From positions 1-64,000 of the forward strand of contig JAFYQR010000130.1 in assembly GCA_017559825.1 (NCBI GenBank): 64,000 nt of DNA, read 5' to 3'. Below are positions 40,876-56,613 of this stretch, piece by piece (position 1 is the stretch's first letter; the number at the start of each line of letters is the position of its first letter). Both the position numbers and the translations under genes were made by a program. The notes under the pieces were generated by a model, which saw nothing but the letters and a program-made list of their open reading frames with translations, was not told where the DNA came from and searched no databases. This stretch comes from Thermoguttaceae bacterium (GTDB taxonomy: Bacteria; Planctomycetota; Planctomycetia; Pirellulales; Thermoguttaceae).

Positions 40876-43062
40876 TTACCAGTTAAGCTCGGTCGCTTCG
40901 TCCCAATGTTCGTAAAGGAGCTTGATCGCCTCTTGCTCGGCGGTGATTTCCGCTTGCAACTCCTTAATTTTCGCGCCGTCGCGGAGGATTTCCGGTTTCA
41001 GCGCGTCTTCGTTGAGCGAAGCGAGCCGAGTTTCACGGATGAAAATTTCGTCCTCGATGTCGGAAACCTTACGGAACGGGAACTTGCGCTTTCTCTTTTC
41101 TTTCTTCGCTTTTTGGTCGACCGCAGGCGCGCCTTGCGACGCTTTGAAATTCGCTTCGGCGTATTTCGACGGGTCGGAGTTTTTCCCTTTATTGCTCGGA
41201 ACGCCGTTCGTTCGGTTCTCGTCGAGATTCGGAACGGCGCCGCGATTTTTCCCTTTCCCTCCCTTCGGAACGCTCGGCGTCGACGGCGCGGAAGTCGTTT
41301 GCGCGTCGGCTTTACGATTTGTCGGTTTCTTTTCGAGCGACGAGCGGCGCGCGAGGTTCGAGTTCGCTTTGACCGGCGCTTTCCCCGACTTTTTCTCCGG
41401 TTCGAACGGTTCGTCGAGCGCGTTCGGAAGGAACGGGTCGGCCATCAGCCCCTTCTGCACCATATGACGGAACGTCGAGTAGTTGCCGTCGACGATTTTG
41501 TACGTCGCGTTCGGCTGGACGACGAGAAGCTTGTCCGCGACTTGGTCGACGAAGTAACGGTCGTGGCTGATGAAGATAACGCTTCCTTCGAAGTCGCGAA
41601 TCGCCTTTTCAAGCGCCTTGCGGGCCCAGAGGTCGAGGTGGTTCGTCGGTTCGTCGAGGATAAGGACGTTCGGGTCGTCGGCGGCGAGCTTCGCCAACGC
41701 GGCGCGGCACCGTTGGCCCCCGCTTAAATTGCAAACTTTAAGGAGTTGCTGATCGCCGGAAAGGCCGAACGCGCCGAGAAGTTTGCGGCGTTGCAGGTCT
41801 TCGAAAACCTTCTTTTTCGGGCGAATCGCGTCGACGACCGGCGTTTGGTCGTCGACGACGCGCAGTTGTTGGTCGAAATAACCGACTTCGACGCCCTGTC
41901 CGAAGCGGACGGCGCCGTCGTCCGGCGTTTCTTCGCCGAGCAAGCACTTCAAGAACGTTGTTTTACCGCAGCCGTTCGGGCCGAGAATCGCCCAGCGTTC
42001 GCCGCGTTGCACGTCGAACGTAAAGTCTTTAAAGAGAGTACGTTCGCCGTATCCTTTCGTCAAACCTTCGACGCGGAACACTATGTCGCCGGTGCGCGAC
42101 GCGGGCGGGAATTGCATCGGCGGCGCCGAGACGTTGCGCGGAACCTCCGGCGGATTTTCTTCGAGCCGTTCCAATTTTTTGCGACGGTCTTCGGCTTGCG
42201 CGGCCTTCATGCCGTAGTGGTGGCGGCGGATAAAGTCTTTCGCTTTCTCGACTTCCTCGACGTATTTCTCGTAAGTTTTCGTTTGGACGGCGAGGCGTTC
42301 TTCCTTCAAACCGAGGTATTTCGTGAAGTTCCCCGGATAATCGTCGACCGTGCCGGCGTAAAGCTCGAACGTGCGGTTCGTTACGCGGTCGAGGAAGTAA
42401 CGGTCGTGGCTGACGAGAATCACCGCCGCCCGCGTCGTTTTGAGGAAGTCTTCGAGCCATTCGGTCGCCGCCAAGTCGAGGTGGTTCGACGGTTCGTCGA
42501 GGAGCATAATGTCCGGCTCTTCGAGGAGCAACTTAGCCAAACCCAAGCGGTTGAGTTCGCCGCCGCTGAGGGTCGCGACGTCTTTTTCGAAGTCTTCGTC
42601 GCGGAAACCGACGCCGTGTAAAATCCGTTCGACGCGGTGTTCGATGTTGTACGCGTCTTTCCGCATTAGTTCTTCGTGAATTTTATCGTACCGCTTCGCC
42701 AAGCGATCGCGTTCGGCGTCGTCGGCAACCTCGCCCATTTGGACGGCGATTTCTTCGGCTTCTTTTTGCGCGTTGAAGAGCGGCGCCAACGCTTCGCGAG
42801 CGGCGTCGATGAGCGTCGCGTGAGAATCGGTCTTCGGCCGTTGCTCGAGGTATCCGATCGAAATTTCGCCGATCCGTTCGATCGAGCCTTTTTCCGTCTC
42901 TTCGCGTCCCGTTAAAATGTTGAGCAGCGTCGTTTTACCGCACCCGTTCGGCCCGACGAGCCCAATTTTGTCCCCCTCGCGCACCTGAAAGGTAACGTCG
43001 GCCAAGACCGGATCGGGCCCAAAGTGTTTTCGAAGATGTTCGACGTTGAGTATAACGGCCAT
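40876..43062 (-). CDS. ABC-F family ATPase (Uup-like)
   Basis: 728 residues with two ABC cassettes and no membrane helices. Cassette 1: Walker A GPNGCGKT, signature LSGGELNRLGLAKLLL, Walker B DIMLLDEPSNHLD. Cassette 2: GPNGCGKT, LSGGQRCRAALAKL, NVLILDEPTNHLD. The linker between them (residues about 235-320) has the ABC-F PtIM helices (EERLAVQTKTYEKYVEE, YGMKAAQAEDRRKKLERL). The C-terminus has a long Lys-rich insert and a terminal coiled coil (RDGAKIKELQAEITAEQEA), as in Uup. ABC-F proteins act on ribosomes or, for Uup, on DNA excision and ribosome assembly. It has its own promoter. Confidence 0.9.
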   Translation of the reverse strand: MAVILNVEHLRKHFGPDPVLADVTFQVREGDKIGLVGPNGCGKTTLLNILTGREETEKGSIERIGEISIGYLEQRPKTDSHATLIDAAREALAPLFNAQKEAEEIAVQMGEVADDAERDRLAKRYDKIHEELMRKDAYNIEHRVERILHGVGFRDEDFEKDVATLSGGELNRLGLAKLLLEEPDIMLLDEPSNHLDLAATEWLEDFLKTTRAAVILVSHDRYFLDRVTNRTFELYAGTVDDYPGNFTKYLGLKEERLAVQTKTYEKYVEEVEKAKDFIRRHHYGMKAAQAEDRRKKLERLEENPPEVPRNVSAPPMQFPPASRTGDIVFRVEGLTKGYGERTLFKDFTFDVQRGERWAILGPNGCGKTTFLKCLLGEETPDDGAVRFGQGVEVGYFDQQLRVVDDQTPVVDAIRPKKKVFEDLQRRKLLGAFGLSGDQQLLKVCNLSGGQRCRAALAKLAADDPNVLILDEPTNHLDLWARKALEKAIRDFEGSVIFISHDRYFVDQVADKLLVVQPNATYKIVDGNYSTFRHMVQKGLMADPFLPNALDEPFEPEKKSGKAPVKANSNLARRSSLEKKPTNRKADAQTTSAPSTPSVPKGGKGKNRGAVPNLDENRTNGVPSNKGKNSDPSKYAEANFKASQGAPAVDQKAKKEKRKRKFPFRKVSDIEDEIFIRETRLASLNEDALKPEILRDGAKIKELQAEITAEQEAIKLLYEHWDEATELNW

Positions 43063-43529: not shown

Positions 43530-44099
43530 ATGCGTCCCAACGAGAAAGAGCGAGCGATGTTGGATCGCAAAACCTACGAAGCGTTGTCGGAAGCGCTGAA
43601 AAATCGCGAAGTTTCGTGCCGTTCGATCGCGCGTTCCTTCGGCGTCAGCCACACGTTGGCCCTCAAAATTCGCCGCCAAACCGGTCGCGTTCGAGTTTTC
43701 GACGCTCCGGAAATCGCCGCGCCGCTCGGCGAGTACCTCCGCTGTCCCCGTTGCGGAGCGAAAACCCGCCTCCCTTGCGTTTACTGCGCCGTCGTCGACG
43801 AGTTAAAACGCAAACCGCCCAAGCGAGAGCGTTCGGAAACCGAACTCGCCGACGAACGCGGCCCGGCGTTCCTCGGCGACGAGTTCGCGATCGACCTGCC
43901 GCCCGACGAGTACGCCCGTTACCAAGAGGTGCGCGCTTGGCGAGAACGAAGTCAAAACCCGCGTTTCGAAGTCGTTCCGGACGATTGGCCTTGGCGCGAC
44001 GAAACGTTCGTCGACGCGGAATCGCCCCGTCCCGCGTCCGCCGTCGAGACGATCTCGACGCCCGCCGTTCGCCGCCGCCCGACCCCGGTTCTCGTTTAA
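43530..44099 (+). CDS. HTH/zinc-ribbon protein at the head of the cassette
   Basis: 189 residues. Residues about 14-52 look like a helix-turn-helix (REVSCRSIARSFGVSHTLAL). A compact zinc-ribbon, Cys72, 75, 83 and 86 (CPRCGAKTRLPCVYC), follows. The rest is charged and Pro-rich and probably disordered. It is a likely DNA-binding regulator or packaging-related protein of the cassette. The start could also be the ATG at 43557 (GAGAAAGAG upstream); the ATG at 43530 is chosen only because it keeps the longer frame. I do not recognise a named family. Confidence 0.65.
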   Translation: MRPNEKERAMLDRKTYEALSEALKNREVSCRSIARSFGVSHTLALKIRRQTGRVRVFDAPEIAAPLGEYLRCPRCGAKTRLPCVYCAVVDELKRKPPKRERSETELADERGPAFLGDEFAIDLPPDEYARYQEVRAWRERSQNPRFEVVPDDWPWRDETFVDAESPRPASAVETISTPAVRRRPTPVLV

Positions 44100-44138
44100 C
44101 CGCCGTCTTTTCATCCTTTAACGCCTTTAATTTTAACA

Positions 44139-44858
44139 ATGAAAACGCAATCCGCCCCCTTTTTTCCTCCGTCCGGCGCGTTCGCCGACGCCGTTCAATC
44201 GTCGCAAAACGCGCCGCCTTACTATATTCCGTTCGAACGCGGGCGTTTTTTATTGCGCGACGCCGACCTTTTGCTCGTTCGAAGCGGCGGCGTCGTTCCT
44301 TGGCTCGGACGCGGCGTCCACGGCCACGTCGCGACGGTCGCTCGCTGGAACTCCGAACCGTTCGTTTTGGAAACGCGTCCCGGCGGCGGACGAGCCGTTC
44401 CGCTCGACGCCTTTTTGCGGCGCAACCCTCGACGCGTCGACGTTTTCCGCCCGAATCCGGACGGTCGTTGGCCGGAATATCGCCCGGAACGATGCGTCGC
44501 GTTCCTGCGTCGCGCTCTTTCGGCCCGCTACGGTTGGCGGAGCGTTTTCGCCGCGGCCTTCGCTCGCCTTCCCGGAACTCGCCGCCTTTGGGGCGCCGCT
44601 TATTTTGACGACGCCAAGTTCGCCGACGCAACCTCCCGGTTTCCCGAAACTTGCGCAAGCGAATGCCTCGACGCCGTTCGCCGCCTCGACCGCGAGCGTC
44701 CCCGACGCGCTTCGTTTCACTGCGCCGAGGCGCGAGCGCTCGCCGACCGTTGGGCGGGCGTCGACGCGATTCCGTTTTTGAGCGACCGTTTCGTCGAACC
44801 CGCCGACTTGGCTCGCAGTCCGTTTTACCGTTATCAATTTACCTTCGCCGCCCTTTAA
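44139..44858 (+). CDS. Permuted papain-like (YiiX/NlpC-P60-type) cysteine hydrolase
   Basis: 239 residues. The pattern DADLLLVRSGGVVPW, then HGHVATVARW and FVLETRPGGGRAVPLD, fits the circularly permuted NlpC/P60 group, in which the catalytic His (HGHVAT) comes first and Cys comes late. Candidate Cys positions are in ETCASECLDAV and in FHCAEARALAD. No signal peptide is visible. In a phage setting a cell-wall or acyl-chain hydrolase acting in entry or exit is the obvious inference, and it could stand in for a lysin. It sits 40 bases after the HTH gene. Confidence 0.6.
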   Translation: MKTQSAPFFPPSGAFADAVQSSQNAPPYYIPFERGRFLLRDADLLLVRSGGVVPWLGRGVHGHVATVARWNSEPFVLETRPGGGRAVPLDAFLRRNPRRVDVFRPNPDGRWPEYRPERCVAFLRRALSARYGWRSVFAAAFARLPGTRRLWGAAYFDDAKFADATSRFPETCASECLDAVRRLDRERPRRASFHCAEARALADRWAGVDAIPFLSDRFVEPADLARSPFYRYQFTFAAL

Positions 44859-44918
44859 CCTGCCCAATCGCGCGCCGTTATCCCTATTCGTCTCTTCCGT
44901 TTTTAAGGAAAACCGCTC

Positions 44919-46028
44919 ATGAATCGAATTGTTCGCCGCCGTCTTTTGTTAGCGCTCGCCCTCGGCTTGTCGGCGACGTCAACGCTCTCCGTTTCCTTTG
45001 CGCCGTCTCGTTTTACGACGCCGCCCAACGCCGCGTCGCGCCGCCTTTCCGAAACGGCTTTCGGTTCCGCTCCGCTTCCCAACCGTTTTCTCGACGCGCC
45101 GCCGTTCGACGATTTTTTGGGAGCGTCCGTTTGCCCTAACGGCTCGTGCTCGTTGGACTTCGGAACGCCGACGCCTTCCTTTCAACCGGCGCCGCAGGGA
45201 GCCGTTCGCGCCGTCGCTCGAATTTACAACGCTTACGAAGAGACGACGACGCTCGATCCGGCGCTCGGCCCAACGCGACGCAAGATCGTCGAAAAGGGAA
45301 GCGGCGCGTTCGTCGCCGACTCGCACGGAACGCGCTACGTTTTGACGGCGGCGCACATTTTTCGCGACGGGCGAGGCCAAATTTCGGCGCAGTCGGTCGA
45401 CGGTCGCGTCTTTTCCGCTTCGCTCGTTTTAGCGTCGGAGGAATGCGACGTCGCGCTCCTGCGAGTCGACCTTCCCGCCGACGTGCCGACGCTGACCGTT
45501 TCGGCGTCTTGGCCGCGCCAAGGCGAAACGGTTTGGCGCGCCGGATTCGGCCCGGACGAAACGCTCAAAGAACTTTCCGGAACCGTTAAAGGCTACGTTA
45601 AAACCGATCGTTGTTCTACTTACGAAACGCTCAAAATCGACGGTCCCGCTCGCCAAGGCGACTCCGGCGGCCCCGTTTACAACGCGGACGGCGAAATCGT
45701 CGGCGTCGTTTGGGGCACCGACGGTCAAGACGCTTACGCAACCTATTGCGGTCGCGTTCTTAAGACCCTTTGCGACTATTCGCCGACGTTCGATCCCGAC
45801 GCGTCGCTCCCGGAGCCGCCGACGCTCCCCGACCCCCCGATTCCCTCGCAACTCGCCGATTCGCAACCGATTAAAAACGATCCGTTCGCCGTCGAAGAGC
45901 CGCCGCTCGCGCCCGTCGAGTCGGTCGAATCGAAAACGCTCCTCGCCGATTTTTGCAACGCCGCGGTCGCGCTAACCGTCGGTTTCGCGTTCGGCTACTG
46001 CGGTTTTTTCGCTTCAAAGCGAGTCTAA
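44919..46028 (+). CDS. Secreted, membrane-tethered trypsin-like serine protease
   Basis: 369 residues. A signal peptide (RRRLLLALALGLSATSTLSVSFA) is followed by a trypsin-like domain at about 95-275 with the triad His146 (LTAAHIF), Asp177 (ECDVALLRV) and Ser249 (GDSGGPV), all intact. A Pro-rich linker and one C-terminal membrane segment (FCNAAVALTVGFAFGYCGFF) follow. A tethered periplasmic protease is unusual in a phage head module. It could process envelope proteins, act in release or immunity, or be a host gene caught in the cassette. AAGGAAAA precedes the ATG. Confidence 0.85.
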   Translation: MNRIVRRRLLLALALGLSATSTLSVSFAPSRFTTPPNAASRRLSETAFGSAPLPNRFLDAPPFDDFLGASVCPNGSCSLDFGTPTPSFQPAPQGAVRAVARIYNAYEETTTLDPALGPTRRKIVEKGSGAFVADSHGTRYVLTAAHIFRDGRGQISAQSVDGRVFSASLVLASEECDVALLRVDLPADVPTLTVSASWPRQGETVWRAGFGPDETLKELSGTVKGYVKTDRCSTYETLKIDGPARQGDSGGPVYNADGEIVGVVWGTDGQDAYATYCGRVLKTLCDYSPTFDPDASLPEPPTLPDPPIPSQLADSQPIKNDPFAVEEPPLAPVESVESKTLLADFCNAAVALTVGFAFGYCGFFASKRV

Positions 46029-46089
46029 CCCCTTATTTTTCGTCGTTTAATCTCGCTTATTTTTCCGCCGTTTACGAAAGGATTTCCCG

Positions 46090-46350
46090 ATGGAATGGAA
46101 CGCGTCGACCGGCTTGGCGCTCGGTATCGTTTCGACCTTAACCCCTTGGTTTTTCGCGATTCACTCGAAATTAGCGACTCTTGCCGAACAAACGTCGCAA
46201 GGCGCGAAAAAAATCGACGCGCTCGCCGCCGCAACCGCGCGAGCGTTCGAAAAGCTCTATGAATTTGAGAAGCGTTTGAACGCGCAAGACGTTCGTTTAC
46301 AAAACGTTGGCAAGCAAACTAGCGAACTCGCCGAAACGCTCGCCGACTAA
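46090..46350 (+). CDS. Small membrane/coiled-coil protein (holin-like or spanin-like)
   Basis: 86 residues: one hydrophobic segment at about 7-25 (TGLALGIVSTLTPWFFAIH) and then a helical coiled-coil stretch to the end (LAEQTSQGAKKIDALAAATA). This layout is common in phage proteins near lysis or packaging genes, but a single helix is little evidence. A ribosome-binding site GAAAGGA precedes the ATG. Function unknown. Confidence 0.6.
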   Translation: MEWNASTGLALGIVSTLTPWFFAIHSKLATLAEQTSQGAKKIDALAAATARAFEKLYEFEKRLNAQDVRLQNVGKQTSELAETLAD

Positions 46351-46374
46351 CCGACCGCCGCCTAGGAGAAAAAA

Positions 46375-46929
46375 ATGCGCAACCGCGTCAAAGAATTGCG
46401 TTTCGTCAAAGCTTCCGACTTAATCCCCAACGCCGACAACTGGCGTTCGCATCCCAAGCGCCAACGCGACTTAATGAAGAGCGTTCTGCAAACGATCGGT
46501 TACGCCGACGCGCTGATCGTTCGCGAAACCGAGGACGGCTCGCTCGAACTGATCGACGGACATCTCCGCGCCGACGTGTCGCCGAACGCTGAAGTTCCGG
46601 CGCTTGTGGTCGACCTTAACGCTAAGGAGGCCAAGGAGTTGCTTCTCGTTCACGACCCGATCGGCGCGATGGCCGAGCGCGACGACGAGGCGGTTTCGCG
46701 CCTTCTCGCCGACTTCGAAGCGACGAACGAAACGCTCGAACGTTTTATCGTCGAAGAGTTTAAGCTCGACGTCGACGCCGAAAACGACTCGCCGCCGCGC
46801 CGCGAAAAGTCGCTTTCGGTTCCGACTCTCTTCCAAATCGTCGTCGAGTGCGAAGACGAAGACGACCAGCGCGCCTGTTTCGACGAGCTGACGCGCTCCG
46901 GACGCAAGTGTCGCGTCGTCAACCTTTAA
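46375..46929 (+). CDS. ParB/Srx-like nuclease-fold protein
   Basis: 184 residues. The N-terminal 110 residues are a ParB-like domain: ASDLIPNADNWRSHPKRQ, then SVLQTIGYADALIVRE and the motif ELIDGHLRADV, the equivalent of the GxxR/DGHxR nucleotide-binding box of ParB N-terminal domains. The remainder is acidic and helical with a short terminal beta-rich domain (LFQIVVECEDEDDQ) like those in phage ParB proteins. Phage members often sit beside DNA-modification genes or the terminase; here the next gene is the ABC-GNAT fusion, 48 bases on. ParB-like domains can hydrolyse CTP or cut DNA; which applies here is unknown. AGGAG lies ahead of the ATG. Confidence 0.8.
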   Translation: MRNRVKELRFVKASDLIPNADNWRSHPKRQRDLMKSVLQTIGYADALIVRETEDGSLELIDGHLRADVSPNAEVPALVVDLNAKEAKELLLVHDPIGAMAERDDEAVSRLLADFEATNETLERFIVEEFKLDVDAENDSPPRREKSLSVPTLFQIVVECEDEDDQRACFDELTRSGRKCRVVNL

Positions 46930-46977
46930 TCGTTTATTCGCAACGTTTCTTCCCCGCATAAATAAGGAAAAATCGCG

Positions 46978-48105
46978 TTGGAAAACACGTCTCAAACGCA
47001 AACGATCCGCGTCGCGGCGCCGGTTTACGACTCGTTCCGAGTCCGCTCGATCGCCGGCATGTTCGACGCGCCGATCGAGACCAAAACGGAAAAAGTCATT
47101 ACGTTCGAACCTCCGCCGCCGCTCGACGAAGATTGGCGAATCGGCCTAATCGTCGGTCCGTCCGGAAGCGGCAAAAGCACCGTCGCTCAAACGATTTACG
47201 CGTCGGAAATTTTTCGCGGAGGCGATTGGGCGCCCGACAAAGCGACGATCGACAATTTCGGCGAGCGCCCGACGAAAGAAATCGTTCGCGCCCTAACGAC
47301 GGTCGGCTTCGCGTCGCCGCCGAGTTGGGTTCAACCGTTCGCGACGCTTAGCAACGGCGAGAAATTCCGCTGCGAACTCGCTCGAGCGCTCCTCGACGCG
47401 CCGACGGAACTCGTTGTCTTCGACGAGTTTACAAGCGTCGTCGACCGAACGGTCGCGAAAACGGCGTCCGCCGCGATTTCCGACGCGCTTCGAAACGGCT
47501 TCCTGAAAAAACGGTTCGTAGCGCTGTCGTGCCACTACGACGTCGTCGATTGGCTCGCGCCCGATTGGGTTCTCAACACGGCGACCGGCAAAACGACAAG
47601 GAGGCGTCTTCGGCGACCGCGAATCGAACTGGAAATCGTTCGCGGCGATAAAAAAAGTTGGCCCGTCTTTGCGAAACATCATTATTTGAGCGCGACGCTG
47701 CATCCCTCGGCGCAATGTTATTTAGCGTTTTGGGACGAAACGCCGGTCGCTTTTTGCGCGACGCTTCCGCTCTTCGGAGCCGTAGGACGGCGCCGCGTAA
47801 CGCGACTCGTCGTTCTCCCCGATTACCAAGGTTTAGGAATCGGAACGGCGGTCTTGGAAGCGGTCGGCGACCTCCATCGCGAACGGTCGCTGCGCTATCA
47901 TATCGCGTCGAGCCATCCGTCGATCATAAACCACTGCAAACGTTCGCCTTACTGGCGCGTCGTTTCAACGTCGAAATTCGGACGACAAGGCAAAATCGAC
48001 GGAAACCGACGAAGCGGCTCGCTCGGCCGCGCTATCGTTTCGTTCGAGTATTTAGGGCGCGACGACGAATCTTCGCCGTCTTCGCAACCCGCCGCGTTAC
48101 CATAA
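46978..48105 (+). CDS. ABC-type ATPase fused to a GNAT acyltransferase domain
   Basis: 375 residues from a TTG at 46978 with AAGGA nine bases upstream. Residues about 50-205 form a soluble ABC ATPase: Walker A GPSGSGKST (60-68), signature LSNGE (124-128), Walker B LVVFDEF (145-151), and switch His (ALSCHYDVVDW, 182-192). Residues about 218-345 form a GNAT domain (FAKHHYLSATLHPS, RLVVLPDYQGLGIG with the acyl-CoA loop at 284-289, and SSHPSIINHC). The GNAT half resembles phage Mom-like proteins, which modify adenine in DNA, more than ribosomal or aminoglycoside acetyltransferases. That resemblance is my reading and untested. The ATPase lacks membrane partners. The preceding ParB-like gene is the natural partner. 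Confidence 0.75.
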   Translation: MENTSQTQTIRVAAPVYDSFRVRSIAGMFDAPIETKTEKVITFEPPPPLDEDWRIGLIVGPSGSGKSTVAQTIYASEIFRGGDWAPDKATIDNFGERPTKEIVRALTTVGFASPPSWVQPFATLSNGEKFRCELARALLDAPTELVVFDEFTSVVDRTVAKTASAAISDALRNGFLKKRFVALSCHYDVVDWLAPDWVLNTATGKTTRRRLRRPRIELEIVRGDKKSWPVFAKHHYLSATLHPSAQCYLAFWDETPVAFCATLPLFGAVGRRRVTRLVVLPDYQGLGIGTAVLEAVGDLHRERSLRYHIASSHPSIINHCKRSPYWRVVSTSKFGRQGKIDGNRRSGSLGRAIVSFEYLGRDDESSPSSQPAALP

Positions 48106-48123
48106 CTTATCGAAACATCAATT

Positions 48124-48570
48124 ATGTCCCCCAAACGAAAAACGAAAAAAAAAGCGCCGCTCGACGCGACCGACAAAAACGGCGTGCTCGCGGTCGTCGC
48201 GCTCGGCGCCTCGCTCGAAACGGCCGCCCGCTACTTCAAGCGAGAACCGCTCGAAATCGTCGAAGCGCTGACCGACGACGCCGACTTCCAACGCGACTTC
48301 AAGCAAGCGCAAGAACAAGCGGAAGTATTTTTCCTCAAACAAGTTAAAACCGCCGCTCTCGACGCGAAAAACTGGCGCGCCGCGACGTGGTCGCTCGAAC
48401 GTCTGCGCCCGGATCGTTACGGTCGAATCAAAGCGAACGCGATTTCCGTCGAGGAAATCAAAGCGCTCTTCGCCCGCCTCCGCGAGACGCTCGCCGCCGA
48501 GTTCGCCGACGAAGACGAGCGGCGCAAAATCGAAGAAAAACTCGACGCGCTCCTCGCGACGCTTTCCTAA
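48124..48570 (+). CDS. Small terminase subunit candidate
   Basis: 148 residues. A basic start (KRKTKKK) precedes a helix-turn-helix-like region (VVALGASLETAARYFKREP), a helix with FLKQVKTAALDAKNWRAA and the phrase LERLRPDRYG that is common in small terminases, and a C-terminal helical segment (AEFADEDERRKIEEKL). It would bind the packaging site and stimulate the large terminase. It starts 18 bases after the ABC-GNAT gene and ends 50 bases before the large terminase, the standard order. Confidence 0.75.
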   Translation: MSPKRKTKKKAPLDATDKNGVLAVVALGASLETAARYFKREPLEIVEALTDDADFQRDFKQAQEQAEVFFLKQVKTAALDAKNWRAATWSLERLRPDRYGRIKANAISVEEIKALFARLRETLAAEFADEDERRKIEEKLDALLATLS

Positions 48571-48620
48571 CGCTTTAATTAACGTTATTTACCGTTTTAT
48601 TTATCGAAAGGTTCGCTCCG

Positions 48621-50198
48621 ATGCAAACGCGCCGCCTCCTCGAAATCGCTCGCGAATCGCTGCGAGAACCGCCGCCGTCCGACGCGACGCGCCTCGTTTT
48701 TCGCGATCTTATCGAATGGTCGCAACACTTTTTGCCGCGTTACTTTACGCTTCCCGTTTCGAAAGCGCACCGCTGGTTCGCCGAGACGGTCGAAGCGAAC
48801 GCGACGCGCCGAGGCGTCAAGGTTAATTTTCTCGCCCCGCGCGGCGCCGCCAAGTCGACGCTCGGAGCGTTGGCGTATCCGCTTCGCGAAGCGCTCGAGG
48901 GCCGCGAGCCTTACATTTGGATCGTCTCCGACGTTCGCTCGCAAGCGCAAAACCATCTAAACAACATTGTTAAAGAACTTGAAGAGAACCCGCTTATTCG
49001 AGCGCGTTACCTCGAACCGCGCAAAATCCGTTGGGCGCAACGCTCGAACCGCGTCGTTTTTAGTTCCGGTGTCGCGATCGAGTGTTACGGAACCGGCCAA
49101 AAACTGCGCGGACGTCGGGAACGCGAACGCCGCCCGTCGCTGATTATCTGCGACGACTTGCAAAACGACGACCACATCGTTTCGAAAACGCGACGCGAAC
49201 GCTCTCGCCGCTGGTTTTTCGGCGCGCTCCTAAAAGCGGGCGACGTCAAGACTAACGTCGTTTCATTGGCAACCGCGCTTCACCCGGAGGCGCTCGGCTG
49301 GGAACTCCTGTCGAATCCGGCTTGGATCGGCAAAGCGTTCCCCGCGATCCTCCGTTTTCCCGACGCGGTCGAACTTTGGAACGAGTGGAAGACGATTTAT
49401 CTCGCTTCCGACGCCGACGCGTCGCGCCGAGCCGACGAATTTTATCGCGCTCATTTCGACGAAATGAACGCCGGCGCCGAGGTTCTCTGGCCGGAAAACG
49501 AGTCGTTGCTGGACTTAATGAAAATGCGCGTCGAAAGCGGCGAGAAGGTTTTTCTCCGCGAAAAGCAAAACTCGCCGGTCGCGACGGAGTACAACGAGTT
49601 TCCCGACGAGTATTTCGACGACGCTTGCGCCGACTCGCTTCCGCAAACTATCGTCGCGTCGGCGCTCGCGCTCGATCCGAGCAAAGGACGCGACGCTTCG
49701 ACCGGCGACTACTCGGCGTTCGTTTTCGCCGCGCTCGCCGGAGACGGAACGATTTTTATCGACGCAAAGCTCGGGCGTTTCCCGACTTGCGAACTCGTCG
49801 ACGAAGCGTTCGAACTTTGGCGACGCTTCCGCCCCGACGTTTTCGCCGTCGAAACAAACCAATTTCAAGAGCTTCTCCGCGACGAATTAGAGCGAACCTT
49901 CCGCGAGCGAGGCGTTCCCGACGCGGCGATTTTTCCCATCGAAAACCGCCTCAACAAAAACGTTAGAATCCGACGCTTAGGCGCGCCGCTCGCGAAACGC
50001 AAACTTCGTTTCCTCCGCGACAATCCATCGAACGAACTCCTAATCGAGCAGCTGCGAGCGTTCCCCTGCGGAGCGCACGACGACGGCCCGGACGCGCTCG
50101 AAATGGCGCTGCGCGTCTTGACTTCGCTAACGGAAACCCCCGCCGTCGAAACCTTTAGCCAAGGAGATTTCGGCGCGATTCGCCCCGATTTTTTTTAA
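48621..50198 (+). CDS. Phage terminase large subunit
   Basis: 525 residues, normal for the family. The N-terminal packaging ATPase has Walker A APRGAAKST (72-80), Walker B LIICDDLQ, and the coupling motif near VVSLATALH. The C-terminal nuclease domain is of RNase H fold with acidic residues in ALDPSKGRDASTGDYS, FAVETNQF and HDDGPDALE, all present. It cuts concatemers and drives DNA into the procapsid. AAAGG precedes the ATG. The frame is intact, arguing that packaging is or was recently functional. Confidence 0.93.
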   Translation: MQTRRLLEIARESLREPPPSDATRLVFRDLIEWSQHFLPRYFTLPVSKAHRWFAETVEANATRRGVKVNFLAPRGAAKSTLGALAYPLREALEGREPYIWIVSDVRSQAQNHLNNIVKELEENPLIRARYLEPRKIRWAQRSNRVVFSSGVAIECYGTGQKLRGRRERERRPSLIICDDLQNDDHIVSKTRRERSRRWFFGALLKAGDVKTNVVSLATALHPEALGWELLSNPAWIGKAFPAILRFPDAVELWNEWKTIYLASDADASRRADEFYRAHFDEMNAGAEVLWPENESLLDLMKMRVESGEKVFLREKQNSPVATEYNEFPDEYFDDACADSLPQTIVASALALDPSKGRDASTGDYSAFVFAALAGDGTIFIDAKLGRFPTCELVDEAFELWRRFRPDVFAVETNQFQELLRDELERTFRERGVPDAAIFPIENRLNKNVRIRRLGAPLAKRKLRFLRDNPSNELLIEQLRAFPCGAHDDGPDALEMALRVLTSLTETPAVETFSQGDFGAIRPDFF

Positions 50199-50222
50199 CC
50201 CTTCGCCCCCAAGGACCCCGTT

Positions 50223-51545
50223 ATGCCCGCATCCCGCTCCTTCAACGGCGTTTTGTCCGCCGACGCGGTCGTTTCGACGCTCGAGTCGCGGTTCGCCTTC
50301 GACGATCCTAATTCTTTTGTTTTCGGCGATTTATCGTATTCGCTCGCCAGTTCGACCGATTCGGAAATGTTCAACGAGGCGGCGCGTCGTATTTCTCGCG
50401 ACCTTTGCTTAAACAACCCCTTCGCTATCAACGCTTTAGAAAATCGAATCAACTACGTCGTCGGCTTCGGGCACAAGTACCAAGCGACCGCTCGCGACGA
50501 AAGCGACGCCGAGCTCGCCCGAAAAACGCAGGACGTCGTCGTCGATTTTATCGTCGAAAACGATTGGTTTAAGCGTCAACAGGAGATTTTGCGCCGCTAC
50601 GACCGCGACGGCGAGGTTTTTCTCCGCTTTTTCCGCGACGAACGCGGGAAAACGGTCGTTCGCTTCGTCGAACCGGAGCAAGTCAAGACGCCGCAAGGGC
50701 CTAACGGTCGCCGCAGTCGTTGCGGAGTCGTCGCCGACAAACGCGACGCCGAGCGGATTCTCGGCTACTGGATCGACGGCTCGTTCGTCGACGCCGCGAA
50801 AATTCAACACCGTAAAGCGAACGTCGACGCGACCGCAAAACGAGGCGTTCCCTTGCTTTATCCGGTGCGCGAAAACCTGCGCCGCGCCGAAAAACTCCTC
50901 CGCAATATGAGCGTCGTCGCCGAAATTCAGTCGTCGATCGCCTTGATTCGCAAGCACGCCAACGGAACGCAAGAAAGCGTTCGTCGCTTTGTTCGCGATA
51001 AAAACCGAGAAGCCGACGGCATGCCGCCGCGAGAACGCTTTCAACCGGGCACCATCGTCGACGCGACCGCAGGGGTCGACTACGAATTTCCCATCGCCGG
51101 AATCGACGCGACTCGCTACGTTCAGATTTTACAGGCCGAACTGCGAGCGATCGCCGCGCGGCTCACGCTTCCGGAGTTCATGCTCAGCTCCGACGCCTCG
51201 AACGCCAACTACGCCTCGACGAGCGTCGCGGAAGGCCCCGCCGTTCGCAACTTCGAACGCATGCAACACGAGCTCGTTAAAGAAGATATGAAAATTGTTT
51301 GGCGCGTCGTCGAAGACGCCGTTCGACGCGGCGAACTCCCGGAAGACGTCGGCAAGCGCGTCTCGATCCAAGCGATTCCGCCGTCGTTGGCGACGCGCGA
51401 CCGCCTCAACGAAGCGAAAGCCGACGAAATTTTGATCGCCGCCGGCGTTATTTCGCCGCAAACCGCCGCGATGCGCCACGGTCTCGATCCGAATCGCGAG
51501 CGAGCGCTCCAACGTCAAGCTCGTCAAGAATTTACCGCCGACTAA
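50223..51545 (+). CDS. Phage portal protein
   Basis: 440 residues. The features expected of a portal are seen: an N-terminal alpha-helical stretch, NPFAINALENRINYVVGFG near residue 65, the wing region (FLRFFRDERGKTVVRFVEPEQV), and a clip/stem region (FMLSSDASNANYASTSVAEGP). It would form the ring at the capsid vertex for DNA entry and exit. AAGGA lies ahead of the ATG. It follows the terminase by 24 bases. Confidence 0.88.
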   Translation: MPASRSFNGVLSADAVVSTLESRFAFDDPNSFVFGDLSYSLASSTDSEMFNEAARRISRDLCLNNPFAINALENRINYVVGFGHKYQATARDESDAELARKTQDVVVDFIVENDWFKRQQEILRRYDRDGEVFLRFFRDERGKTVVRFVEPEQVKTPQGPNGRRSRCGVVADKRDAERILGYWIDGSFVDAAKIQHRKANVDATAKRGVPLLYPVRENLRRAEKLLRNMSVVAEIQSSIALIRKHANGTQESVRRFVRDKNREADGMPPRERFQPGTIVDATAGVDYEFPIAGIDATRYVQILQAELRAIAARLTLPEFMLSSDASNANYASTSVAEGPAVRNFERMQHELVKEDMKIVWRVVEDAVRRGELPEDVGKRVSIQAIPPSLATRDRLNEAKADEILIAAGVISPQTAAMRHGLDPNRERALQRQARQEFTAD

Positions 51546-51597
51546 CCTCGACTTTTTCCCGTTTCGTTTCCTCGCCCTCCATCTACGAAAGCGCGTT

Positions 51598-52488
51598 ATG
51601 AACAACGAAAACCTTTTGGAATTTTTCGATTTGTCGTCGCCGCGACGCAAAATCGACAAGGAAAACGGCGTCGTTTCCGACGTCAAAATTTTAGGCGTTA
51701 AAAGCCGCAACAACAGGATTTATCCGATCGAAACGCTGCGCGCCGCCGCTCCGCTTTACGAAAACGCCAAAGTCAACGTCAACCATCCGGACGGCTCGCC
51801 GACCGAATCGCGCAAGTATCAAGATCGCGTCGGTTCGATTAAGAACGTAACGCTCCGGGAAAACGGGCTTTACGGCGAGTTCCACTTCAATCCGAAACAT
51901 CCGCTCGCCGAGCAGATGCTTTGGGACGCGGAACGGGCGCCGGAAAACTTCGGTTTTTCGCACAACGTCGAAGCGGTCGTTCGACTCGAAAACGGCGCGC
52001 AAGTCGTCGATAAAATCGTTCGCGTGCGCAGCGTCGACCTTGTCGCGGATCCGGCGACGACGTCCGGGCTCTTCGAGTCCGCGCCGATAAGCGTCGATTC
52101 CGCAAGCGTTTACCCGACCTCGGCCGCAACGACGGCGACGCTCGAAAGCGCCGATTCCCGCCTTCAAACGCTTAAAGAAGAACGCGACGCCGCGACACGC
52201 CGTTTCGCCGTCGCCCGTCTTTTGCTCGAAAAACTCGCGTCGGAACGCGACGGCGACGCCGTTCGATTGGCGCTCGGCGCGGCGAGTTTTCTCGAACTCG
52301 CTTTTGAATCTCGCGACGTCGAATCGGCGCGACGCCTTATCGACGAACAACTTGCGCTCGTTCGCGAAGCGTTGAATCTTTCGACGCTCAAAACGCCGAG
52401 CGCGGAGGAGCCGGTCGTTTCGAAATCGCGCTCCGACGTCGACAACGAAGAAAACAACGAAAGTTTTGCGGAGGCGATTCTTTATTAA
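51598..52488 (+). CDS. Head maturation protease/scaffold-like protein
   Basis: 296 residues. The N-terminal 165 residues match a prohead protease: SRNNRIYPIETL, the catalytic-His segment VNVNHPDG (His63), GFSHNVEAV, and the conserved Ser strand VRSVDLVADPATT (Ser145). The C-terminal half is charged and helical (LQTLKEERDAATRRFAVARL) and acidic at the end, fitting an internal scaffold fused to the protease, as in many phages. It would trim scaffold or capsid during maturation. Confidence 0.8.
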   Translation: MNNENLLEFFDLSSPRRKIDKENGVVSDVKILGVKSRNNRIYPIETLRAAAPLYENAKVNVNHPDGSPTESRKYQDRVGSIKNVTLRENGLYGEFHFNPKHPLAEQMLWDAERAPENFGFSHNVEAVVRLENGAQVVDKIVRVRSVDLVADPATTSGLFESAPISVDSASVYPTSAATTATLESADSRLQTLKEERDAATRRFAVARLLLEKLASERDGDAVRLALGAASFLELAFESRDVESARRLIDEQLALVREALNLSTLKTPSAEEPVVSKSRSDVDNEENNESFAEAILY

Positions 52489-52572
52489 CGCCCGCCGAGC
52501 AAGCCGCAACCTTTTGTTTGTCAACGCTTAACCATTTTTCCAGTTCTTTACTTTCAACAGAAAGGCATTTTG

Positions 52573-53733
52573 ATGGCGACTATCAAATATCGCGAATTGA
52601 AACGACGCTACGACCTCGACGGCGCGCAAAAAACGGTTGCGCACCTCTCGGAAGCTCTTGCGAAAAAAGAACTTCGCGCCGACGACTTTAGCATCCGCGA
52701 CTTGGCCGAAGCGCTCGTTCCGAACGGCTCGCAATGGGTGCGCGAACTGAACCCGAGCGTCGGTTCGCTAACCGAATCGTTCCAAGGCGTCGACGTTTCC
52801 GCGTTCGCGACCATCGCCGGTCAACTGATTTATAGCCGCATTTTGGAAGCGTATCAATCGGAAGTCTTTTGTCTTTCGAAACTTATCTCGACGATTCCGA
52901 CGCGGCTCAACGGCGAAAAAATTCCCGGCTTCTCGTCGATCGCCGACGAAGCGGTCGAAATCGAGCCCGGCTCGGCGTATCCGAACGTCGGGTTTAGCGA
53001 AGATTACATCGAGACGCCGGAAACGACGAAACGCGGCCTCATCGTTCCGGTTACGCGCGAAGCCGTTTTCTTCGACCGCACGCACGTCGTCTTGGCGCGA
53101 GCGGGCGAAGTCGGCGAAACGCTCGCGCTCAATAAAGAAAAACGCGTTGCCGACATGATTCTCGGCGTTTCCAATCTGTATCAATGGAACGGAACCTCGT
53201 ACTCGACCTACTACGCCGCCGGCTCGTCCTCGCCGTGGGTCAACCTCCTTTCCGGCAACCCTTTAGAAACGGTCGAGAACGTCGACGCGGCCGAAAACGT
53301 TTTAGCGAGCGCGCTCGATCCGAACACCGGCGAACCGATTCTCTCCGAAGCGACCGCCGCGCTTGTTTCGCCCGCTAAACGTCGAATCGCCAACGTGTTG
53401 CTGCGCGGCTCGAATCTGCGCTGCGCCGACGGAACGCTCAGTTCGATTCCGAATCCGTTCGAGAAACTCGCGGTCGTTTCGAGCCGTATCGCCCGTCGCC
53501 AACTCGCGAAAGCGAACGCCTCCGCTTCCGCCGAAACCCTCGACAATTACTGGTTTTACGGCGACTTTAAAAAGGCGTTCGCGTACATGGAAAACTGGCC
53601 GATCACCGTTTCGGTCTCTTCGGCGGGCAGCGAAGCCGATTTCAGCCAAGACGTCGTCGCCCGCTTCAAGGCGAGCGAACGCGGAACCCCGGCCGTTTTG
53701 AACCCGCGTTGCGTCGTCAAGTGCGTCGGCTGA
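52573..53733 (+). CDS. Major capsid protein candidate
   Basis: 386 residues from the ATG at 52573 (AAAGG upstream; a TTG at 52570 is also in frame). An N-terminal helical part (YRELKRRYDLDGAQKTV) is followed by a mixed region with FSEDYIETPETTKRGLIVPVT. Position after the protease and length argue for an HK97-fold capsid protein of the Mu-like or similar groups, but I can see no motif that proves it. No delta-domain cleavage is obvious. It is the largest structural protein of the cassette. Confidence 0.75.
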   Translation: MATIKYRELKRRYDLDGAQKTVAHLSEALAKKELRADDFSIRDLAEALVPNGSQWVRELNPSVGSLTESFQGVDVSAFATIAGQLIYSRILEAYQSEVFCLSKLISTIPTRLNGEKIPGFSSIADEAVEIEPGSAYPNVGFSEDYIETPETTKRGLIVPVTREAVFFDRTHVVLARAGEVGETLALNKEKRVADMILGVSNLYQWNGTSYSTYYAAGSSSPWVNLLSGNPLETVENVDAAENVLASALDPNTGEPILSEATAALVSPAKRRIANVLLRGSNLRCADGTLSSIPNPFEKLAVVSSRIARRQLAKANASASAETLDNYWFYGDFKKAFAYMENWPITVSVSSAGSEADFSQDVVARFKASERGTPAVLNPRCVVKCVG

Positions 53734-53815
53734 TTTTTTAGCCGCCTCGTTTCGACCTTTTCCTCGTATTGCCGCCGTCTTATCGTCTTAATCGACGGCG
53801 TTTAGAAAGGACTTT

Positions 53816-54040
53816 ATGGAAGATTCGCTCGACGTCGGCGCGATCTTAGAAATCAAACGCCGAACCTTGGCGACGCTCGCCGACTTGGCGCGTTCGCCCA
53901 AACCGACGTGCAAAATCGACGGCGTCGTCGTCTCTTGGCGCGAGTACCAAGAGTCTTTGCAACAAACGATCGACTGGTGCGACCGACGACTTAGCGCCTT
54001 CAACGCGTTTGAGTCGCGTTCTCGCGGCGTCGTCGATTGA
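53816..54040 (+). CDS. Small head-associated protein
   Basis: 74 residues, with no membrane segment. The order CKIDGVVVSWREYQESL then QTIDWCDRRLSAF is characteristic of small proteins that follow capsid genes in several prophages, but no function is assigned to them. AAAGGACTTT precedes the ATG. A strong terminator comes right after. Confidence 0.65.
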   Translation: MEDSLDVGAILEIKRRTLATLADLARSPKPTCKIDGVVVSWREYQESLQQTIDWCDRRLSAFNAFESRSRGVVD

Positions 54041-54065
54041 CGCCGTTCGCCGCCGTTTCTTTTGA

Positions 54066-54127
54066 GTCGAGCGCTCGCGTTCTCGTTTTCGACGCGCCGC
54101 GAACGCTCGACGTTTTTTCTTTTTTTT
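54066..54127 (+). terminator. Intrinsic terminator/attenuator within the head operon
   Basis: Arms GTCGAGCG and CGCTCGAC (54066-54073 and 54104-54111) are followed by TTTTTTCTTTTTTTT. It lies between the small head protein gene and the connector candidate, so it may reduce expression of the last three genes relative to the capsid gene. Confidence 0.7.
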
Positions 54128-54144
54128 CACTTTAAGGATTCGCC

Positions 54145-54801
54145 ATGTCCTTTATCGACAACTTTTACGACTTCGTCGATTTAACCGAACGCGTCGACGT
54201 TCTTCAAAACCGCGACGGCGACGTTTCAACTTTTGAACTCGACCGAGCCGGCCTCTTTTCGAGCCGCTTTTCCAACGGCGGAGCCAACGACGTTCCGCCG
54301 CGCATCGTCGGCGTTTGGCGTCTGCCGCTCGACGAAAACACGCGCTCGATTCGCCGCGGCGACAAAATCCGCGACGCCGAGGCGCGTATTTGGATCGTAA
54401 GCGAAACGTCGCCGTCGCAAACGCTTCAACTTCTTACCTGTCAATGTTTTTGCGAACAGCTTTTCCCAGGCCCCTCCGATTTTATCAACGCGTCGCGCCC
54501 CTTGCGTTCCGGCGGCTTCGAAACGATCGCGACGCAAGCGCCCGCGCTCGTCAAGCGTCGAACGACGTCGAGCCTTCAAAACGCCGCCGCTTTTCCGGCC
54601 TTAACGCTCGTCGAAGAAATCGAATTTTGGATTCGAATCGACGTTCCGCTCCGTCCGAACGACGTCGTCGCAACGAGCGACGGAAACCGTTACGAAACGA
54701 CGAGTTACCGTTCGCCCGACGACGTTTCCGATTGGGGCGTTCTCGTCGCGAGACGACTCGGCGGCGCCGACGATTTTTGGCGCTCGCCGAAACCAAATTA
54801 A
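54145..54801 (+). CDS. Head-tail connector-like protein (uncertain)
   Basis: 218 residues. The beta-rich N-terminus (ERVDVLQNRDGDVSTFEL, then DKIRDAEARIWIVSE) is reminiscent of head-tail adaptor proteins that follow capsid genes in many phages, but the match is weak and the usual length is near 110. The second half (IRIDVPLRPNDVVATSDG) is of similar style, so the protein could be two copies of an adaptor fold. AAGGA precedes the ATG. Genuine coding is clear from the frame and context; function is uncertain. Confidence 0.55.
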   Translation: MSFIDNFYDFVDLTERVDVLQNRDGDVSTFELDRAGLFSSRFSNGGANDVPPRIVGVWRLPLDENTRSIRRGDKIRDAEARIWIVSETSPSQTLQLLTCQCFCEQLFPGPSDFINASRPLRSGGFETIATQAPALVKRRTTSSLQNAAAFPALTLVEEIEFWIRIDVPLRPNDVVATSDGNRYETTSYRSPDDVSDWGVLVARRLGGADDFWRSPKPN

Positions 54802-54906
54802 AAACGACGGCGTTTGCTTCGCCGCAAACAACCAAACGCGTTAATCGCCGTCTTTTCAGCGTTTAACTTTCATTACATTCGCATCCGCGCTTTTCGAGGC
54901 AACATC

Positions 54907-55833
54907 ATGGCGATTCAAATTCAAGAGCTGCCCGGCTCGCCGCAAGAAAAATACTCGCTCGACTCTTTCTCCGCAACTCGAACGTTCATCGTGCCTTGGG
55001 AGCAACGCGACGCGTTCGCTCGTTATTTTCTCGGCGACCGGCTTTACGCCTGCGAGTCGTTGACCCCGTCCGACGACGAAGACGAATCGCTCGTTCCGCC
55101 GTCGTCCGGCGCGCCGATTTCCGGGCCGACGACGCGGCTCGCATATCCCGGTAAACCGGGGGTTTACGTCAGCCAAATCGCGTTCGAACCGTTTGAGCCG
55201 AACTCGCTTGACGTCTCGAAAATCGCTCGGCCCGCGTCGACGCTCGGCGAATACGGCTCGTTCGCCAAAGCGACCGTGTCTTACCGCGCCGAAACGACTT
55301 CCGTCGACCGCGTTAATTCGCCGCTCGTTGATTCCGGCACGAGTCTTACGTATAAGATGGTCGCTTGCGGGGAGTCGTTTCCGCTTTCGACGCGCGGCTG
55401 GCGTTGGCGCAACGACGCGACGGCGTCGGTCTCGGAAGATTTGCAACTCGTCAAACGCGTTCCGACGATCGAGCATCAACTCGTTTGGTCGAACGTCGTA
55501 AACCCGCCTTGGGAAACGATTAGCGCAATACAAGGCACGGTCAATTCCGACCGTTTTCTCGATTACGCGCCCGGCACGCTCCTCTTCGAAGGCGCCGAGG
55601 CGAACAAAATTTTCAACGGCGAAATCGACGCGGGCGCCGTCGCGTACACTTGGCAGATTCGTTTTCTCTTCCGCGAAAAACGAATCGAGGCGGGCGGAAC
55701 CTACGGCTGGAACGACTTTTACCGCGAGTCGACGGGAACTTGGGAACGCCTCGTCGACGCCGCCGGGCAACCGCTTTACCGTTCCGCCAATCACGCCGCG
55801 CTTTTCGTCCAATCGCAAACCGTTTCCAATTAA
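54907..55833 (+). CDS. Unassigned structural protein of the cassette
   Basis: 308 residues from the ATG at 54907; an upstream in-frame start at 54814 would add 31 residues with no ribosome-binding site. The sequence is rich in beta-forming and aromatic residues (YPGKPGVYVSQIAFEP, RGWRWRNDATASVSED, RIEAGGTYGWNDFYRE). I do not recognise a family. In this position a tail-tube, neck or capsid decoration protein would be expected. Confidence 0.55.
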   Translation: MAIQIQELPGSPQEKYSLDSFSATRTFIVPWEQRDAFARYFLGDRLYACESLTPSDDEDESLVPPSSGAPISGPTTRLAYPGKPGVYVSQIAFEPFEPNSLDVSKIARPASTLGEYGSFAKATVSYRAETTSVDRVNSPLVDSGTSLTYKMVACGESFPLSTRGWRWRNDATASVSEDLQLVKRVPTIEHQLVWSNVVNPPWETISAIQGTVNSDRFLDYAPGTLLFEGAEANKIFNGEIDAGAVAYTWQIRFLFREKRIEAGGTYGWNDFYRESTGTWERLVDAAGQPLYRSANHAALFVQSQTVSN

Positions 55834-55887
55834 TAAGTTAAACGCTTGTCGCCGTTTTGTTTATTTTTTAAGCGTCGGAGGCTTAAT

Positions 55888-56613
55888 ATGTCGACTATCT
55901 CTTTAGAAAGCGCGACTTCCGGTTTCACTTCGCGCAACGTTCCGTTTCATCGCGTCGACGCGAACGGCCCTTGGGCGTTCGAGCAAGACGGGGCGTCGTT
56001 TCGCCTTGCCGAGCCGCGAACGTTGGAAATTAGCGTTTTCCAAGTCGCGCGAGCGCCCGAATTTCTCGCCTTTACTCGCGACGGCGCAACGTTTTACGAA
56101 CCGACTCTTAGTTTCGAAGCCGCGCCGGTTTACACGCCGTTTACCGAAATCGCGGTCGGTTCCGCCCAACCGACGCGACGCGAAAATTTACGTCGCGCCG
56201 CCGATTTGACTGAATCGGTTCGCCGCCGCGTTTACGCCCCGACGTTTCTCGAAAGATTAAACGTCGAACAAACGTTGACGTCAAACAACTTGCCGTTAGC
56301 GTTTTACGCGCCGTATCGCGTCGGCGACCGATTGAACGCGTTTTGGAATCGAACGAGCGGGCGTTGGGAAGTCGTCGCGCCGCCGGAATTTAACGTCGTT
56401 CGGTTTCAACTCTCTTCCGCGTTAACGCCCGGCTCGACCGCGACCGCCGACGCGCTTTACTTCGACGCGACAACGCAAACGTTTGTCGACGGCGGACTTA
56501 AAATCGCCGTCGCCGATTTTCTCGGGCGTTTTCAAGGAGCGGTCGGGAAGCGCGGTTACGCTCGACGGTTCGCCGACCGCGACTCTTGGGAAATCTTTGC
56601 GCTTGACGCTTAA
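55888..56613 (+). CDS. Last unassigned protein of the cassette
   Basis: 241 residues from the ATG at 55888 (GGAGG eight bases upstream). A beta-rich region (FHRVDANGPWAFEQDG, FLAFTRDGATFYEPTL) and a C-terminal part (SGRWEVVAPPEFNVVRF, ending FALDA) show no known motif. The closing part, with ATTQTFVDGG, could be a receptor-binding or decoration domain. Reading ends in the host terminator and there are no tail genes beyond. Confidence 0.5.
   Translation: MSTISLESATSGFTSRNVPFHRVDANGPWAFEQDGASFRLAEPRTLEISVFQVARAPEFLAFTRDGATFYEPTLSFEAAPVYTPFTEIAVGSAQPTRRENLRRAADLTESVRRRVYAPTFLERLNVEQTLTSNNLPLAFYAPYRVGDRLNAFWNRTSGRWEVVAPPEFNVVRFQLSSALTPGSTATADALYFDATTQTFVDGGLKIAVADFLGRFQGAVGKRGYARRFADRDSWEIFALDA

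Follow-up and report, generated by a model that had tools for sequence, protein, structure and literature searches.

A ParB-like protein and an ABC ATPase-GNAT fusion as a probable phage module for ATP-dependent acylation of DNA bases

A ParB-like protein and a fusion of an ABC ATPase with a GNAT acyltransferase (ABC-GNAT), encoded side by side ahead of the terminase genes in a 64,000-nucleotide stretch of DNA from a Thermoguttaceae bacterium (the window), probably form a phage ATP-dependent DNA-base acyltransferase module, coupled through an adaptor tail of the ParB-like protein; DNA as the target and the acyl group transferred are putative. The Mom-like context of the ABC-GNAT is strongly supported: phages exchange it for Mom beside a common ParB core. 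Our best reading is that the module acts like the Com-Mom system without being homologous to it by profile. In outline the idea that an ABC-GNAT modifies DNA is already known as a prediction (Iyer et al. 2013). What appears to be new is that tails are partitioned between the two enzymes and that the ABC-GNAT and Mom have been exchanged repeatedly; a ParB partner may already be mentioned in Iyer et al. 2013.

Results

The window belongs to a genome of 3.68 Mb in 240 contigs, whose nearest relatives, all Thermoguttaceae (Planctomycetota), inhabit the guts of ruminants and deer. Flanked on the minus strand by an ABC-F gene (40876-43062) and by alaS (56734-59361), a plus-strand cluster of head and packaging genes (43530-56613) encodes a trypsin-like protease, the ParB-like protein, the ABC-GNAT, the two terminase subunits, the portal and the capsid. 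As the sequence-only reading of this DNA had stated, the genes for the ParB-like protein (46375..46929, plus strand, 184 residues, ATG start) and the ABC-GNAT (46978..48105, plus strand, 375 residues, TTG start), with starts taken from simple ORF calling, directly precede the terminase. TerS (48124..48570, plus strand; phrog_4102, 6.3e-6) and TerL (48621..50198, plus strand; phrog_38, 5.8e-76) follow, and the portal gene comes after both. The sequence AAGGAAAA was found upstream of the TTG start. A tblastn search with window TerL had matches in 66 of 81 planctomycete-type loci, the cluster of terminase neighbours itself being judged from sequence. In most relatives, DNA or packaging genes lie close to the locus; the earlier reading had said that their absence would count against it.

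The ABC-GNAT protein (P0002) matches ABC_tran (2.1e-8) and Acetyltransf_1 (4.9e-9) in Pfam and, over its full length (residues 10-364, E 2.2e-99), the PHROGs family phrog_11143, annotated as of 'unknown function'. Its AlphaFold2 (AF2) model has a pLDDT of 92.2 and a pTM of 0.87. The ABC motifs, like the QGLGIG loop of the GNAT half, are conserved in an alignment of 75 diverse relatives. On the plus strand, these are the Walker A motif GPSGSGKS (residues 60-67, 47155..47178; G60, S62, G65 and K66 invariant), the ABC signature LSNGE (residues 124-128, 47347..47361; L124, S125 and G127 invariant), the Walker B motif with the D-loop, VVFDEFTSVVDR (residues 146-157, 47413..47448; D149, E150, S153 and R157 invariant), and the invariant H-loop His186 in CHYD (47533..47535). 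No membrane partner adjoins the gene in the window, and the description of a soluble ABC ATPase with intact motifs is upheld. The GNAT domain (about residues 214-360, 47617..48057, plus strand; Y236, R276 and G285 invariant) includes the motif HHYLS (47677-47691) and the acyl-CoA loop QGLGIG (residues 284-289, 47827-47844), and its fold is supported by Acetyltransf_1, the AF2 model and Foldseek GNAT matches. A confident match to a specific protein or small-molecule acetyltransferase family had been named as a refuting outcome; this half matched superfamily-level GNAT models only. The fusion or a relative is encoded in 54 phage records and at least 591 IMG/VR loci, and the occurrence of the pair is therefore not chance; the loci are the best matches per scan rather than a random sample, so that counts given here describe those branches and not the whole family. 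A text search of the literature returned no paper on COG2401.

PHROG ParB families together with the AF2 model confirm the predicted ParB fold of the 184-residue partner. Its core matched phrog_498 (ParB region of DNA methyltransferase; 3.8e-14) and phrog_620 (1.8e-12), the ParB_N match in Pfam (0.016) lying below the cut-off, and the model (pLDDT 91.9) matched ParB-CDP structures in Foldseek (6sdk, 7.2e-7, TM 0.48 by query length). Box II, IDGHLR (residues 60-65, 46552..46569, plus strand), contains the arginine of the NTP-binding motif (GHLR, residues 62-65, as read from the sequence), whose role in NTP binding is described in PMC12704722; ParB relatives bind CTP, ATP or GTP (PMC12704722). 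No helix-turn-helix was seen among the Pfam and PHROG matches of the protein, which thereby falls outside the canonical chromosome-partition ParBs, defined by helix-turn-helix and C-terminal dimerisation domains.

The ParB-like protein ends in a tail of about 35 residues (46822..46926, plus strand; FQIVVEC..E..Q......L...G..CRVVNL) with a beta-alpha-beta sequence pattern. In the AF2 model the helix (residues 162-174) is confident and the strands are unpaired in the monomer. Among relatives the tail follows the consensus hhhEC..E.EQ.....L..EG..CR.L.L, with C, E, Q, G and C conserved at 90-97%. An ORF ending in this tail lies upstream of the ABC-GNAT gene in 161 of 182 loci and, in a second subfamily, in 75 of 80. 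Mostly the tail is the C-terminus of a ParB-like protein; in 47 loci (6 from the set of 182 and 41 from the set of 80) it is a free-standing ORF of fewer than 100 residues, a count from which L069, where the ORF is cut by the contig end, was set aside. Since free-standing tail ORFs occur without a ParB core, the constant partner of the ABC-GNAT is the tail rather than the core. Large phages with no tail upstream of the ABC-GNAT are Vibrio VmeM-32, PX29, pT24, P12024S and Enterococcus 9184.

A ParB-like gene is also found immediately upstream of Mom relatives. This holds for 129 of the 136 non-redundant loci, and every one of these ParBs has a C-terminus of the CPxC zinc-knuckle-like type. Tail type and enzyme go together: ParBs with a recognised tail were beta-alpha-beta in 180 cases and zinc-type in none beside the ABC-GNAT, and zinc-type in 129 cases and beta-alpha-beta in none beside Mom, a split for which the Fisher value is nominal only because the sequences are related. 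Thus a CxxC tail, as in a Com-like zinc partner, was seen in 0 of the 180 classified ABC-GNAT partners; three further ones were left unclassified. In a tree of the ParB core, from which the tail was excluded, partners of Mom and of the ABC-GNAT are intermingled within clades. Grouping of the Mom-ParBs into one clade is rejected (p-AU 4.7e-53), and the supported branches force at least 16 enzyme switches, on a tree of 140 columns only with a bootstrap not fully settled. The tail goes with the enzyme in 16/16 independent pairs, with states assigned from the 180/129 classification.

Two Arthrobacter phages show the exchange at a syntenic locus, where EastWest encodes an ABC-GNAT and Sonny encodes gp70 and Mom. 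Identities between them are 64% for gp73/gp68 and about 55% for the ParB core and, in the 3' flank, 80% for a DNA-binding protein, 45% for the sliding clamp and 32% for the next gene. The Mu-like Pseudomonas phage Komp_PAO1_1 has, following its tail-fibre genes, a free-standing tail ORF that runs into the start of the ABC-GNAT gene, and com overlaps mom at the corresponding position in Mu; tail-fibre genes precede many other free-standing-tail loci too. Homology between Com and the Mom-side ParB tail is not claimed, because Com has four cysteines and the tail two, a CxxC feature being all that they have in common. Aeromonas phage PX29 encodes both an ABC-GNAT (L021 5896-7074) and Mom (L219 1932-2816), and the two enzymes are therefore not mutually exclusive.

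The sequence-only reading had placed the GNAT half closer to Mom than to common acetyltransferases, and this had to be abandoned: the domain is of the canonical Acetyltransf_1 type. P0002 had no match at E<=1 to the Pfam Mom profile (PF25680), which, as a control, was strongly matched by Mom of Mu, PX29, Antuna and Sonny. The profile comparison with Mom suggested beforehand, in which hhalign aligned the GNAT halves from 75 relatives with a set of 162 Mom sequences, returned a probability of 0.3%. Membership of the Mom family by sequence is ruled out by these two results. The sole stretch that hhalign aligned includes HHYLS of the ABC-GNAT and WHYS of Mom; these motifs may have been the source of the earlier resemblance and are not evidence of membership. 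What survives of the proposed DNA-modification module is its function, strongly supported on independent grounds by the ParB in common with Mom, the tail partition, the syntenic swap and the acyl- and formyl-related neighbours, and not by a Mom-like sequence.

These neighbours are found 3' of the ABC-GNAT gene. In one subfamily a Formyl_trans_N protein is encoded directly 3' in 62 of the 70 loci with enough downstream sequence. It keeps the active-site His and Asp of PurN, but none of the 65 formyltransferase sequences compared has Asn at the position of PurN Asn106, Gly being the usual substitute. Phage Komp_PAO1_1 is one carrier of a formyltransferase. Rhodococcus phage Jace and two IMG/VR contigs instead encode, 3' of the ABC-GNAT, an aspartate decarboxylase (PanD, PF02261) and a short class III CoA-transferase (PF02515); the third CoA-transferase (L062) was recognised by a profile of the Jace protein and not by Pfam. 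As judged from their domains, the accessory genes suggest that the acyl donor is unusual or that the group, once transferred, is altered further. Neither a formyltransferase nor a PanD/CoA-transferase neighbour was found at the window locus, and plain acetylation is possible there because no gene marks an unusual donor. An acyl-CoA role was also considered for the upstream 'enoyl-CoA hydratase-like' proteins of phrog_1128 and set aside, the name probably being a misnomer for tail proteins; ten upstream proteins yielded either phage domains (DUF4376, Mu Gp48, Gp13-like) or no match above the cut-off.

Among 43 high-quality genomes of the host family, the ABC-GNAT is present in 36 and TerL in 35, mostly as one intact copy. 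The ABC-GNAT tree partly follows host families, and presence of the cluster varies within the window's own genus. No integrase or lysis gene was recognised between 43530 and 56613, and the cluster looks like a domesticated or gene-transfer-agent-like element. Its presence in most genomes of the family weighs against a phage DNA-modification reading, because the particles of this lineage, if any, may be non-infectious. The genome to which the window belongs encodes a second ABC-GNAT (L002, G000:C216:7894-8931), 55% identical, which is accompanied by a ParB of its own and by another type of terminase.

Discussion

In the mechanism that we propose, the ABC-GNAT would spend acyl-CoA and ATP to acylate a nucleobase of DNA bound for packaging. 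The ParB core, an NTP-binding, clamp-type fold, would load on or scan that DNA, and its C-terminal tail would dock the ABC-GNAT, a zinc-knuckle-like tail serving Mom instead. ATP binding or hydrolysis may drive scanning or base opening, and the modified DNA would resist restriction. We infer the DNA target, the docking by the tail, the role of ATP, the acyl group and the protection from restriction. Our literature search found no experimental modification data for any family member.

For the Tenacibaculum jumbo phage pT24, the relevant passage of PMC7824862 describes a GNAT coupled with an ABC ATPase, which Iyer et al. 2013 (NAR gkt573) had predicted to acylate a DNA base in an as yet uncharacterised way. 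That system resembles the window pair in its domain pairing and in the predicted acyl modification of a DNA base; the ParB partner, the adaptor tail and the exchange with Mom go unmentioned in that passage. The phage encodes a homologue of P0002 (tblastn 3e-39), putatively identical to QAX98348.1. Its ABC-GNAT frame (L022 6004-7176) is broken by one in-frame TGA between two annotated ORFs. The literature search returned no experimental test of this prediction by the Aravind group.

Several known systems share parts of this arrangement. Com-Mom of Mu (PF25680) likewise has a GNAT-superfamily enzyme (for Mom, as stated in a passage of PMC7824862), a small partner ORF overlapping the enzyme gene, the same genome position in Mu-like phages and, in Mom relatives, a ParB partner. 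It differs in that the ABC-GNAT is without profile similarity to Mom, carries an ABC ATPase together with a canonical QxxGxG loop, and is paired with a beta-alpha-beta-like rather than a zinc-type partner. Com is a translation activator of mom mRNA (PMC6483171), whereas the ABC-GNAT tail is a proposed adaptor. In phage ParB-DNA methyltransferase fusions (phrog_498), the ParB region is the best PHROG match of the window ParB core; those fusions hold ParB and the modifying enzyme in one protein, whereas in the window the enzyme has a separate gene and the tail is the proposed link. DndD-DndE of the phosphorothioate system, an ABC ATPase with a DNA-binding partner like the window pair, has been proposed as the DNA-scanning core for a modification enzyme (PMC10853773) and offers a precedent for ABC-based scanning, although DndD has long coiled coils and no GNAT and the chemistry is on the backbone.

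Alternative functions were weighed against DNA acylation. The tRNA cytidine acetyltransferase TmcA/NAT10 also carries an ATPase and a GNAT in one polypeptide and acts on a nucleobase. Of the best PDB fold matches of the ABC-GNAT, TmcA (2zpa) alone is an ATPase-GNAT that modifies a nucleobase; the Foldseek alignment is long and the overall TM-score low. As an established case of such an enzyme at work on a base, it also counts in favour of base acylation in DNA. The ABC-GNAT might then be a phage counterpart that acylates a tRNA or mRNA base with the aid of ATP, and Jace does carry tRNA genes. We regard this as unlikely: TmcA has a helicase-type ATPase and an RNA substrate, the ATPase of the fusion is an ABC, and the ParB partnership, the exchange with the DNA enzyme Mom and the position before terminase genes fit DNA better than RNA.

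Acetylation of a protein (ParB, terminase or a host factor), by which the ParB-like protein and the ABC-GNAT would regulate packaging or transcription, also seems improbable. The GNAT half is indeed of a canonical type and often adjoins the terminase, and the phage protein Rac acetylates host RNA polymerase (in a passage of PMC7824862). This explanation would nevertheless account neither for the replacement of one enzyme by the other, Mom or ABC-GNAT, next to the same ParB cores nor for the formyltransferase and PanD/CoA-transferase neighbours, and in Komp, Porphyromonas, PX29 and Vibrio phages the ABC-GNAT gene lies apart from the terminase genes. A phage-borne toxin-antitoxin or defence cassette is very unlikely, even though ABC ATPases and GNATs are known from such systems and the ABC half is weakly similar to PADLOC mad3 (5.4e-13, best stretch residues 111-158). 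The recurrent partner is ParB or its tail rather than an antitoxin- or nuclease-like protein, the genes are placed in late or packaging regions, and the ParB-like protein has no PADLOC match.

Acylation of DNA bases by the ABC-GNAT may be extended, quite tentatively, to a scheme in which one ParB core carries a swappable tail that picks the enzyme (zinc for Mom, beta-alpha-beta for the ABC-GNAT), accessory genes set non-acetyl acyl groups, and Com descends from or mimics an enzyme adaptor. Example groups in such a scheme would be beta-alanyl (from PanD and the CoA-transferase) and a formylated aminoacyl made by a PurN-like enzyme without the usual catalytic Asn. If the module does acylate DNA, hundreds of phages of many bacterial phyla would carry an uncharacterised base modification, made by an ATP-driven enzyme unlike any DNA-modifying enzyme so far studied. 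The culturable phages EastWest and Sonny, which differ at one locus, would give a concrete handle by which the old prediction becomes directly testable, and the exchange of Mom and ABC-GNAT could also throw light on the part that ParB and Com play for Mom.

Some variants of the genes were noted in passing. Many relatives (e.g. G088:C1:497303-498445) have an insertion near residue 142 of the ABC-GNAT, just ahead of Walker B, with the frame mostly open. In five Firmicutes-phage loci (L008 7974-9028; L017 5959-7019; L020 5962-7025; L019 5914-7310; L025 5917-7358), the ABC and GNAT halves are in overlapping ORFs with about 96-135 nt in common, and the second frame inside the overlap encodes the GNAT N-terminus with an HYL motif. 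The P335 overlap contains AAATTTA and TTTAAAC, read as in register for a -1 shift; a programmed frameshift that yields both the ABC alone and the fusion is possible in these split loci. At L061 8351-10867, a terminase-like protein has an apparent intein start (CLSHDTLVAMADG) behind its Walker A region.
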